64,000 nucleotides of DNA from Methylobacterium sp. Leaf123 (GTDB lineage Bacteria; Pseudomonadota; Alphaproteobacteria; Rhizobiales; Beijerinckiaceae). The stretch is taken from the NCBI RefSeq assembly GCF_001423405.1, contig NZ_LMNS01000005.1:85354-149353 (forward strand), read 5' to 3'. The notes beneath the pieces were generated by a model, which was not told where the DNA came from, searched no databases, and saw nothing but the letters and a program-made list of their open reading frames with translations. The translations under genes and the position numbers were made by a program. Shown here piece after piece: positions 39,302 to 42,687 of the stretch. Numbering within the stretch: the first letter of the stretch is position 1; the number at the start of each line of letters is the position of its first letter.

Positions 39302-40375
39302 ATGTCTCACGTGTCCAGCTTCTGGGTGCGCTCTCCCCTCATGCTTGCAGGCGCAGCAGGCTTCCTGATGTTCGGGACGGGAGCGGCCAGCGCCCACGTC
39401 AAATGGTTTTGCGCGTTCGACGTCGCCGGCCAGCCCCGCGGCCTCGAACAGGTTCTCTGCGCCGACTTCGAGCTTCTCACCGGATTGGCGCTCGTCTGCC
39501 TGATGTTCGGCTGCCTGATGGAAGGCACGCCGCTCGGCACCGCACTCCTCAACGCCCTGGACCGCGTCACCGCCTTCGCGCGGGTCAATAGCGGCCTGAT
39601 CGTGCGGGCGGTGCTCGGCTTCTTCCTCGTCTCGCTCTGGAACCTCGGCGGCATCATCCTGACGCCGGAACTGAAGACCGACGCGGCCTGGATCCCGTGG
39701 CTTCAGCTCGCCATGGCCGCCGGGCTACTGTGGAAGCGCACCCTTCCGTTTACCGCCGCCGGTATCGTGTTCCTGTTCGGCTTCGCCGTCTGGAATTACG
39801 GCATCTTCCATCTCGCCGACTATCCGGTCTTCCTCGGAGTCGCCGCCTTCCTCGCCCTGACCGCCCTCGACCGCGACCTGTTCGGCCAGCGTCCGATCGA
39901 CGTGGTGCGCATCGCCGCCGCGATCACCCTGATGTGGGCCTCGGTCGAGAAGTGGGCCTACCCGCACTGGACCGATCCGCTCATCGCCGCCAAACCGGCC
40001 ATGACGATGGGCGCCTCGCCGGAACTCTTCATGCAGGCCGCCGGCATCATCGAATTCACGCTGGCCTTCGCCCTGATCTGGACGCCCCTGGTGCGCCGCG
40101 CCTCGGCGATCATCCTGACGGCGGTCTTCGTCTCGGCCATCGTCGAGTTCGGCAAGATCGACGCCATCGGGCACTCGGGCATCATCGCGGTGCTGGTCGC
40201 CATCGCCGCCGACGACGCCCGGGTCCCCGCCACCCGCCGGGACGTAGTTCTGGCGCCGGTCTATTATGCCAGCGCCCTGATGCTGTTCCTCGGCGTCTAC
40301 TACTTCGCGCACGAAGCCCTGTTCGGCGACGGCTACGGGATCGGTGCGAGCATGACGGGGATTCCGGTGATCTGA
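39302..40375 (+). CDS. Polytopic inner-membrane protein of unknown function
   Basis: The 357-residue protein has about eight to nine predicted membrane helices. The first is a signal-anchor-like segment (LMLAGAAGFLMFGTGAASAHVKWFCAF). Later helices include TGLALVCLMFGCLM, AVLGFFLVSLWNLGGII, AAGIVFLFGFAVWNYGIFHLADYPV and IIEFTLAFALIWTPL. A conserved-looking loop reads LMWASVEKWAYPHWTDPLI, reminiscent of DoxX-like proteins. The gene sits behind an AT-rich promoter region. No partner gene is obvious. Confidence 0.78.
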   Translation: MSHVSSFWVRSPLMLAGAAGFLMFGTGAASAHVKWFCAFDVAGQPRGLEQVLCADFELLTGLALVCLMFGCLMEGTPLGTALLNALDRVTAFARVNSGLIVRAVLGFFLVSLWNLGGIILTPELKTDAAWIPWLQLAMAAGLLWKRTLPFTAAGIVFLFGFAVWNYGIFHLADYPVFLGVAAFLALTALDRDLFGQRPIDVVRIAAAITLMWASVEKWAYPHWTDPLIAAKPAMTMGASPELFMQAAGIIEFTLAFALIWTPLVRRASAIILTAVFVSAIVEFGKIDAIGHSGIIAVLVAIAADDARVPATRRDVVLAPVYYASALMLFLGVYYFAHEALFGDGYGIGASMTGIPVI

Positions 40376-40743
40376 TCCGCCCCTGGACGCAGTTGTGCAC
40401 GACGCTCGGGGGCGCCGCCTGGACAAGGGAGCGCCCCTGAACCGTTCGGGACGGCAAAACCCATCAGGAACGGCGGACAGCAGACCATCCCGGCCGCGCC
40501 AAAATGGTTTGCGAAAGATTTCCGGCAGGCTCGATTCACGTTTCGATAAGTTTAGCCGGTCCGGCGCCCCCTTCATCTCGGCAGTGAAGCGGGAAATCGG
40601 CGATCATTTCGAAATGGCCAAAGAAGCATTTCGTTAAATACGCGCCGATGCATTTTCCCTGGACCGTTGCCGTTTAACGCGATGGCAAGCCGCCCCCGCC
40701 GAAAGTCGGATCTCAAGATCGACGCGGCATCGGACGGGATGGC
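40376..40743. other. Intergenic region without recognised features
   Basis: This 368-bp spacer between two same-strand genes shows no gene with a good ribosome binding site and no strong hairpin. AT content rises at 40610-40640. It probably holds the promoter of the next gene. Confidence 0.45.
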
Positions 40744-41937
40744 ATGAGACATCGTGAACAGACCGACGCGACGGACCGGGATCGCACGGACGGCGTCCAC
40801 CTTCTGCCGAAGGCCGCCTCGTTCGACGACCGCCCGCTCCGTGGGCTCGACTTCAATTCGCAGGATTGCCTCGGCCTCTCGACCCATCCGGAGATCGTGG
40901 CCACCGCCGCCGACACACTGCGCCGCTTCGGCGTGCGCAGCGTCTGCGCCGCGGCCGAGGCCGGCGATCCCGGTCTCTCGGTGGCGCTGGAACGCCGGAT
41001 CGCCGACTTCCTCCAGATGGAGGAAGCCCTGCTCTGCGCGACCGGCCGTGCGGCGGCCCGCACCGTAATCCGCGGCCTCGTGCGCTCGACCGACCACGTG
41101 GTGATCGATGCTGCCATCCGGAGCGGCCTCCGGGAGAGCGCCGAGGCCGCGACCGCACATCTCCACCCGTTCCGCCATCTCGATGCCGAGCATTGCCACG
41201 AACGGCTCCGGGCGATCCGGGCGCGCGACTCCGAGAACGGCATCCTCGTCGTCACCGAGAGCCTGTCGCCCCTCGATTCCGGAACGCCGGACCTCGCCGA
41301 GCTGCGCACGCTCTGTGATCAGTACGGCGCGACGCTTCTCGTGGACGTCACCCAGGATCTGGGCTGCCTCGGCGAGGATGGCCGCGGCCATCTCGGCCTT
41401 CAGGACATGCTGGGCAAGGCCGACTTGGTCACCGGCAGCTTCTCGAAGTGCTTTGCCTCGAATGGTGGCTTCGTTGCCGCCCGCACCCGCGCGGTGACCG
41501 CCTGTCTGCGGACCGCCGAGGCCGAAGCCCAGGCACTCTCGCCGATTCAGATCGCGGTGATCCTCAAGGCCTTCGCCATCCTCGACGAGGCCGATGGGCG
41601 CGAGCGCCGCGCCCGGCTGATGCGCAACGTGCTCAACCTGCGCACGGCCTTGCGGGAGCGGGCGCTCACCGTCTGCGGCGAGCCCTGCACCACCGTCTCC
41701 GTCGCGATCGGCGCCGGGGAACTCGCCCGCCTCGCCGCACCGCGCCTGATCGAACTCGGCCTGCTGGTCGATCTCACCGCGTCAGCCGAGGCGAGCCGCC
41801 TACGGATGCACGTCACCGCCGAGCATTCCGATGCGGAGATCCAGCGCGCCGCGATCGGCGTCGCCGAGGCGCTGGATCGGGCGCGTGCCGATCTTGCCGA
41901 GCGCACACGCCGACCGAGCCTGCGCGTGGCCGCTTAG
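40744..41937 (+). CDS. Alpha-oxoamine synthase-like PLP enzyme (AONS/KBL/ALAS family, atypical)
   Basis: The 397-residue product has the fold-type I layout of 8-amino-7-oxononanoate synthase and 2-amino-3-ketobutyrate ligase: LDFNSQDCLGLSTHPEI at the start, ALERRIADFLQMEEALLCATG near 90, and the PLP Lys235 in TGSFSKCFASNGGF. The PLP-nitrogen Asp201 is present in LLVDVTQDLGCLGEDGRG. Two residues usually His in this family appear changed: DAAIRSG (Arg126) in place of the stacking His, and Gln204 in the DxxH position. Biotin synthesis is therefore uncertain, and no other bio genes are near. The substrate is unknown. Confidence 0.75.
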   Translation: MRHREQTDATDRDRTDGVHLLPKAASFDDRPLRGLDFNSQDCLGLSTHPEIVATAADTLRRFGVRSVCAAAEAGDPGLSVALERRIADFLQMEEALLCATGRAAARTVIRGLVRSTDHVVIDAAIRSGLRESAEAATAHLHPFRHLDAEHCHERLRAIRARDSENGILVVTESLSPLDSGTPDLAELRTLCDQYGATLLVDVTQDLGCLGEDGRGHLGLQDMLGKADLVTGSFSKCFASNGGFVAARTRAVTACLRTAEAEAQALSPIQIAVILKAFAILDEADGRERRARLMRNVLNLRTALRERALTVCGEPCTTVSVAIGAGELARLAAPRLIELGLLVDLTASAEASRLRMHVTAEHSDAEIQRAAIGVAEALDRARADLAERTRRPSLRVAA

Positions 41938-42012: not shown

Positions 42013-42342
42013 TCAGAGAATCATCCCACGCGCGTCCGCCTCGCTCTCGACGGTGTCGAGCAGCGCACGGGACGCGATCAGGCGGCGATCGATCATCGGG
42101 TCGGTGAGCCGGTCGATCCAGAGCGGCCATGTCGCCCGCGCCGCCGAGGTGCGATCCTCAAGATCGCTGCGGACGGCCCGCAGATAGGGCGCCGCGCCCG
42201 GACCGAGCCGATCGAGCGCGACACACAGGTCGCGGCGGAACTCGTGCGAAATTCGAGAGAGCCCGGCATGGGCGGTCTCGTAGGCACCGATCAGGGCATG
42301 GGCGTGCCCGACCGCCTCCTGGGGATACATTGTGCGGAACAT
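42013..42342 (-). CDS. Hypothetical protein, 109 residues
   Basis: Helical soluble protein starting at ATG 42342 (ATG 42330 possible; the frame continues to a TTG at 42369). Text such as EAVGHAHALIGAYETAHAGLSRISHEFRRDLCVALDRLG suggests helices with His residues. The C-terminal half is LWIDRLTDPMIDRRLIASRALLDTVESEADARG. No family recognised. It converges with the PLP enzyme gene. Confidence 0.6.
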   Translation of the reverse strand: MFRTMYPQEAVGHAHALIGAYETAHAGLSRISHEFRRDLCVALDRLGPGAAPYLRAVRSDLEDRTSAARATWPLWIDRLTDPMIDRRLIASRALLDTVESEADARGMIL

Positions 42343-42687
42343 GGCAGGTGTCTCGCAGGGCCCATCCAAGCGAGGGCCTTTCGATCAATGCGCGGAAATG
42401 GACCCGGTTCTGATCGCGACATCGATAATGTTCGAGGGGCCAAGCCAAGCTCGACCGTGATCGAAGGCCTGAATCCGCGGTCGAGCTTGGCTTTTCCGCC
42501 GCTCTGATCTTGTGCAGCGCATTGTTGACACCCGCCGCACGTGATGCGACTGCGCCGCACCTTAAACGGCGTTCCCGACGATCCGGGTGCTGCCAGTCCC
42601 TCTCGTGACTGTGCCGGTACCGCGTGACATCGGACGGGACACCGATCCGCCGGTGCATCCGTTCCGGCGCCGAGGCGACGGGACGAC
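42343..42687. other. Divergent intergenic region upstream of fabD
   Basis: The 345-bp spacer holds a strong hairpin at 42442-42497 and a perfect TTGACA at 42525-42530, which may be the -35 element of fabD. A -10 hexamer is not clear. No coding frame with a ribosome site was found. A small RNA ending at the hairpin is a possibility. Confidence 0.5.
42442..42497 (+). terminator. Strong terminator-like hairpin with no matching gene
   Basis: AAGCCAAGCTCGACCG (42442-42457) pairs perfectly with CGGTCGAGCTTGGCTT (42478-42493), a 16-bp stem with a 20-nt loop, then TT and CC. The T-run extends from within the stem (TTTT, 42492-42495). It lies between divergent genes, so neither annotated gene should end here on the plus strand. 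Confidence 0.7.

Follow-up and report, generated by a model that had tools for sequence, protein, structure and literature searches.

The locus examined here raises the question of what an alpha-oxoamine synthase (AOS) can still do once both of its catalytic histidines have been replaced. The stretch of Methylobacterium sp. Leaf123 DNA that was analysed (the window, 64,000 nucleotides) contains a plus-strand ORF at 40744-41937 whose product is an AOS homologue with E. coli AONS (1bs0, E 2.5e-31) as its closest solved protein. The host, whose genome comprises 5.43 Mb, is Methylorubrum-like. Eleven named proteins matched the product: eight at 71-82% identity, from six Methylorubrum and from Methylobacterium sp. 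R2-1 and B4, followed by those of Methylobacterium sp. C25 and M. gnaphalii at 51% and by one distant AOS.

At E 0.001, a Pfam scan assigned the protein to PF00155 (Aminotran_1_2), PF01053 and PF01212 only, with no match to PF00202 (class III aminotransferase). An AlphaFold2 model (pLDDT 77.7, from an alignment of 12 rows) adopted the AOS fold, the 50 structure matches listed being all of AOS type with Z scores of up to 35.0; SPT (2w8v; Z 35.0, rmsd 2.7, 349 residues aligned), KBL (1fc4; Z 34.7) and E. coli AONS (Z 32.5) were among them, with CqsA further down (Z 30.7). The protein scored below the NCBIfam cut-offs for BioF (171.3 against 426.45 bits), KBL (132.6 against 460), SPT (157.8 against 500), ALAS (108.4 against 338.55) and CqsA/LqsA (NF005526; 114.4 against 428).

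The genome encodes four further AOS proteins. The standard AONS of biotin synthesis was discarded as an identity for the window protein, a BioF-like protein with both histidines being encoded elsewhere (L004, C34:66394; 410.4 bits, the cut-off for bioF being slightly higher at 426.45); a gene for a class III aminotransferase lies about 6 kb from it. ALAS was likewise discarded, two other copies in the genome exceeding its cut-off (L003, 654 bits; L005, 673 bits). Another AOS of this genome (L080:7812-15997, contig C3) carries Tyr at the AONS Asn47 site, lies below every NCBIfam AOS cut-off shown and directly adjoins an ORF that runs to 2271 aa or more; this AOS apparently belongs with the 33-35% matches that the genus search described below gave in most of its genomes.

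Table 1 Features of the AOS-like gene and its surroundings (window coordinates; clade counts refer to the 14 distinct orthologues without the two histidines).
Feature	Coordinates	Strand	Observation
Membrane-like protein, 357 aa, conserved neighbour	39302-40375		No Pfam match at E 0.001
Conserved non-coding leader	40619..40743	+	Invariant blocks 40630-40642 and 40671-40689, 14 species
AOS-like protein, 397 aa	40744..41937	+	ORF with ATG start; PF00155 1.8e-23; AONS 1bs0; modelled fold
Cys42 codon, new invariant Cys	40867..40869	+	C 14/14; Tyr in 23/23 two-His rows compared
Cys68 codon, new invariant Cys	40945..40947	+	C 14/14; Gly in 23/23 two-His rows compared
Arg126 codon, at AONS His133 (PLP stacking)	41119..41121	+	R 14/14; H in 25/25 other family rows
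Pro176 codon, at AONS Ser179	41269..41271	+	P 13/14 (S in M. podarium); S in 25/25 other family rows
Asp201 codon, at AONS Asp204 (PLP ring nitrogen)	41344..41346	+	Kept 14/14
Gln204 codon, at AONS His207 (DxxH)	41353..41355	+	Q 13/14, E 1/14; H in 24/24 readable other family rows
Lys235 codon, at AONS Lys236 (PLP Schiff base)	41446..41448	+	Kept 13/14; Arg in M. rhodesianum
Deleted VEYP / PPTVP active-site loop, residues 341-352	41764..41799	+	4 columns absent 12/14, other residues 2/14
Arg354 codon, at AONS Arg361 (substrate carboxylate)	41803..41805	+	R 14/14; R in 24/24 readable other family rows
ORF, 118 aa, conserved neighbour	42013-42369	-	No Pfam match at E 0.001

Active-site positions were assigned by pairwise alignment to AONS 1bs0, along which the AONS numbers were counted, and by a 17-row MAFFT alignment; the roles given for the AONS residues (His133 stacking, Asp204, His207, Lys236, Ser179 and Arg361) are those generally ascribed to them. 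The first-pass annotation had held that Lys235 and Asp201 are kept, that Arg126 replaces the PLP-stacking histidine and that Gln204 replaces the histidine of the DxxH motif. Both alignments bear this out, placing AONS Lys236 and Asp204 on the two kept residues, His133 on Arg126 and His207 on Gln204. A shifted histidine was also sought in the 14 orthologues, but at neither site did the aligned motif regions contain one. The one exception at the PLP lysine, in M. rhodesianum, is AGG (Arg) where relatives have AAG, a one-base change seen in one assembly.

Beyond these substitutions, the deleted loop is the one that in AONS holds Pro350-Pro354, next to Arg361, and the N-terminal arm is missing, with the loss of 28 N-terminal alignment columns. 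AONS Asn47 corresponds to Gln40 in the window protein, and the relatives already have Gln. Sixty-eight positions are invariant in 23 relatives that keep both histidines (two-His relatives); 37 of these are unchanged in the window clade, 14 changed in some members and 17 changed in all 14, among the last both histidines, Y42C, H65R, G68C and Q356H. At 8 of these 17 fully changed sites all 14 orthologues share one new residue, a proportion close to that of invariant positions across the entire protein (183 of 397), and no extra constraint is therefore claimed for them. The window protein is an AOS-fold protein with a clade-specific rebuild of the active site. Among the titles and abstract openings returned by full-text searches of open-access literature, none describes this His-less clade.

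The distribution of the family was examined in 111 genomes of the genus together with the named loci, which gave 34 family sequences (22 distinct), and in wider searches of 298 family genomes, 385 class genomes and plasmids, which gave relatives 42-72% identical to the Methylobacterium sp. C25 protein. The resulting 51-row tree comprised 14 His-less sequences, 25 other family rows and 12 other AOS proteins. A Cupriavidus plasmid match chosen as its CqsA/LqsA row turned out to be a KBL, so the CqsA family is absent from the tree; some branches leading to the other AOS proteins were flagged as long. The first histidine and the serine are present in all 25 other family rows, and the second histidine, Asp, Lys and Arg in all 24 that are readable, the 25th (L094) being a broken sequence. 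Likewise, the 12 other AOS proteins in the alignment all keep both histidines, Ser, Asp and Lys. The His-less sequences group together as a clade (support 100/100), with the M. gnaphalii group as its sister (98/91); its stem branch measures 0.81 changes per column, that of the sister clade 0.20. The loss of both histidines is derived and clade-specific. Two further relatives deserve mention: a two-His copy in genome G142 (L108) is broken, split by a stop, and a two-His relative 42% identical (L113) is carried on an actinomycete megaplasmid, pSCL4 of Streptomyces clavuligerus.

The long stem could reflect the lineage or the gene. An ALAS of the same fold family (L003, NCBIfam 654 bits, cut-off 338.55) was used as a rate control, of which the outgroups have one copy and the genus two, either of which may be the orthologue. 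For ALAS, the window genome and the M. gnaphalii-like genome G047 are equally distant from three outgroups (61.8 and 62.1% identity to G382, 62.4 and 61.8% to G363, 69.7 and 69.3% to G150), whereas the corresponding AOS values are 49.7 and 68.7%, 49.2 and 67.7%, and 51.1 and 71.1%. Compared directly, the two genomes are 89.5% identical in ALAS and 51.4% in AOS. With ALAS equidistant and AOS not, the burst of change belongs to this gene. The window gene is nevertheless under purifying selection: the Nei-Gojobori dN/dS within the His-less clade has a median of 0.29 (range 0.11-0.43, 91 pairs), against 0.05-0.17 for the six pairs of two-His sister proteins that gave a usable dS; these lower values indicate that constraint has weakened in the His-less clade. 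All 14 distinct His-less orthologues are 391-414 aa long and have no early stop.

The surroundings of the gene are also conserved. The order 357-aa membrane protein, AOS, 118-aa minus-strand ORF, fabD, fabG, acpP, fabF and mltG is kept in all seven long loci of the clade and, over the part covered, in the five short ones; the AOS gene thus lies beside fatty-acid genes (fabD-fabG-acpP-fabF) in conserved order. Other genes flank the AOS at L043 and L044, which are two-His loci. The absence of biotin, heme and sphingolipid genes from the vicinity, stated earlier, is borne out for the ten genes at 36-48 kb that were scanned with Pfam, among which no kinase was found either. Taken together, the leader and the first 12 codons have 89 invariant columns out of 163, compared with 76 of 170 over codons 21-74 and 6 of 167 in the DNA immediately preceding the leader. 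The start of the AOS gene itself has unusual conserved codons. The 13-base leader block occurs in its own genome at one exact site and at three sites with one mismatch. The leader gave nothing above a gathering score in Rfam, contained no sigma-70-like promoter that we could find, and its consensus folding was weak.

The two-His relatives are found in a different genomic setting. Of the first such loci fetched, five had histidine kinases beside the AOS gene and four also had a receiver-GGDEF-EAL-like protein, the grouping being made by BLAST, with Pfam applied to three kinases and one GGDEF-EAL protein. The kinases start with a multi-pass membrane domain of 3 to 5 hydrophobic segments in a simple hydropathy scan, and the three scanned in Pfam gave HisKA and HATPase matches only. 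The AOS gene adjoins one multi-pass membrane histidine kinase, or two, at L100, L102, L103, L106, L110 and L137, several of which also encode a receiver-GGDEF-EAL or receiver protein; these loci come from alphaproteobacterial genomes and from a Pseudorhodobacter turbinis plasmid.

With the first 200 residues of one kinase (L103) as sensor-domain query, the domain was found at E 1e-15 in 14 of the 298 family genomes, in two copies each. Thirteen of these 14 belong to the 20 AOS-bearing family genomes (Fisher 6e-17 over 298 genomes, a value that ignores relatedness and hence overstates independence, the genomes being related). Conversely, an intact two-His AOS occurs in 15 family genomes, of which 13 have the kinase pair and two, G248 and G384 (fragmented), do not. 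By the listed coordinates, AOS and pair lie within 5 kb of each other in eight of the 13 genomes and on different contigs in five. The association has further exceptions: G260 has the pair without the AOS, G740 has the AOS and no pair, G594 and G686 have one weaker sensor copy each, and G045 (L076) has two tandem AOS copies, each with both histidines, and no kinase pair found in the genome. A search of 72,556 plasmid records at E 0.001 found the sensor domain in one, that of P. turbinis, where it adjoins a 66%-identical AOS; three plasmid species carry a relative at least 42% identical, and for two of them, Salipiger and Streptomyces clavuligerus, the records gave no sensor match. Mutually related regulators (25-30% identity) are encoded next to the AOS gene in G045, G248 and Salipiger; that of G045 has a weak GerE/LuxR match of 20.6 bits, below the Pfam cut-off of 23.5, and that of Salipiger is annotated as helix-turn-helix.

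This arrangement recalls the CqsA/CqsS, LqsA/LqsS and JqsA/JqsS systems, in which AOS synthases are encoded near multi-pass sensor kinases (PMC3376566, PMC3566124); one of these papers places the synthase adjacent to its sensor in the organisms it examined. The window protein shares the AOS fold with CqsA, LqsA and JqsA, and many of the two-His relatives resemble them in lying near multi-pass membrane histidine kinases. Unlike CqsA/LqsA proteins, with their cut-off of 428 bits, six two-His relatives score 127-202 bits and the window protein 114, while a KBL scores 195; membership of the CqsA/LqsA group was accordingly rejected for the window protein and for the six relatives, which reach no curated AOS cut-off in NCBIfam. 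The AOS and membrane kinases of these loci form a candidate signalling system, of which no description was found in the literature searched. That two-His AOS genes mostly co-occur with sensor kinases, several also with a receiver-GGDEF-EAL protein, suggests that the relatives may make a small signal, and on this gene association the simplest reading is that they may be a separate, convergent class of signal synthase.

The window clade appears to lack such a sensor. The L103 query found no homologue of the relatives' sensor domain in any of the 14 His-less genomes, even at E 0.001, and the 19 matches of the whole sensor kinase in the Leaf123 genome all begin from query residue 160 onward, in the kinase core.

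We propose that the window protein may have descended from an AOS clade that in other alphaproteobacteria mostly occurs together with two membrane-bound sensor histidine kinases. In the Methylorubrum group, from which the sensor pair is absent, the synthase would have been rebuilt in one burst that removed both catalytic histidines, Ser179, the substrate loop and the N-terminal arm but spared the PLP-binding lysine and aspartate and the carboxylate-binding arginine. The product would still fold as an AOS and bind PLP through Lys235 and Asp201, with Gln204 possibly touching a PLP oxygen, and would no longer carry out acyl-CoA Claisen condensation; its likeliest remaining role would be a PLP-dependent amino-acid reaction without acyl transfer. 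Taken as a whole, a former signal-synthase-like AOS that is without sensors, has a rebuilt active site and binds PLP without condensing acyl-CoA is a reading to which we give an about even chance, ahead of the alternatives considered below.

Several observations argue for it. In fold, PLP lysine, PLP aspartate and carboxylate arginine the window protein resembles AONS (BioF, 1bs0), KBL (1fc4) and SPT (2w8v), from which it differs in lacking both catalytic histidines, Ser179 and the PPTVP loop. With Lys235, Asp201 and Arg354 kept, the means to hold PLP and an amino-acid carboxylate remain, and the protein probably still binds PLP. Class III aminotransferases have a D-x-x-Q frame at the PLP aspartate, and its Gln contacts a PLP oxygen; with Gln204 in such a frame, this contact may survive. 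The D-x-x-Q spacing is a local likeness to class III aminotransferases, possibly due to chance; the Leaf123 genome has three class III aminotransferase loci, and in one of them, L162, a D-E-V-Q motif was seen. Binding residues are thus kept and those that position the aldimine and the acyl-thioester are gone, which favours a PLP enzyme without acyl condensation. The histidine of SPT that we take to be the counterpart of AONS His133 is His159. According to a review, His159 stacks on PLP, is required for PLP binding, is proposed to bond the substrate carboxylate, and lies in a triplet strictly conserved across the AOS family (PMC6148460). The first-pass annotation had offered a new substrate or a non-condensing activity as possible consequences of the two replacements. 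The second suggestion fits this role of the stacking histidine, together with the replacement of both histidines in all 14 orthologues and with purifying selection, and condensation has probably been lost in favour of a new reaction; the first is ranked lower here.

Next in our estimation, with roughly one chance in four, stands a non-catalytic pseudoenzyme, either a regulator sensing PLP or another ligand or a protein that pairs with another AOS without being active itself, like SPT1/LCB1 with SPT2. There is a precedent: SPT1/LCB1 is described as a natural AOS homologue without the PLP lysine (PMC6148460), and the window protein resembles this eukaryotic serine palmitoyltransferase subunit as an AOS homologue that has lost active-site residues, here both histidines, Ser179 (in 13 of 14) and the loop. 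The arginine at the PLP lysine of M. rhodesianum is the strongest single point for such a role, and the four other AOS proteins of the genome are possible partners. Unlike SPT1/LCB1, however, 13 of the 14 members of the window clade have the PLP lysine, and all 14 have Asp201 and Arg354, none of which a pure scaffold would need; nor is a partner AOS gene linked, the conserved neighbours being fabD and the 357-aa membrane protein.

A condensing AOS with a new substrate, in which Arg126 and Gln204 stand in functionally for the histidines, seems to us slightly less probable again. The fold and the retained Lys, Asp and Arg would suit it, as would a full-length gene under purifying selection in 14 orthologues, but the changed residue corresponds to the SPT histidine described as needed for PLP binding and as lying in the strictly conserved triplet (PMC6148460), and the loop next to Arg361 is gone in 12 orthologues and replaced in two. 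A gene decaying after sensor loss and not yet gone would account for the dN/dS above that of the two-His sister group, the fast stem and the lysine lost in one species, but is very improbable given 14 uninterrupted orthologues, a dN/dS far below 1, synteny kept wherever it was seen and a leader far more conserved than the DNA upstream.

The non-condensing PLP enzyme, which remains our preferred reading, can be set within a broader and more tentative one: the two-His relatives would constitute an undescribed class of cell-cell signalling in alphaproteobacteria, made up of an AOS as signal synthase, twin membrane histidine kinases and a receiver-GGDEF-EAL protein as output, and the window protein would be its sensorless synthase, with an Arg/Gln and C42/C68 rebuild and a chemistry new to AOS enzymes. 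The His-less clade, 14 full-length proteins under selection beside a sister group that keeps its histidines, constitutes a natural experiment on the stacking histidine. The unchanged relatives, which mostly track twin sensor kinases, point to a testable signalling system, and the window protein would be a case in which a synthase may have outlived its receptors.
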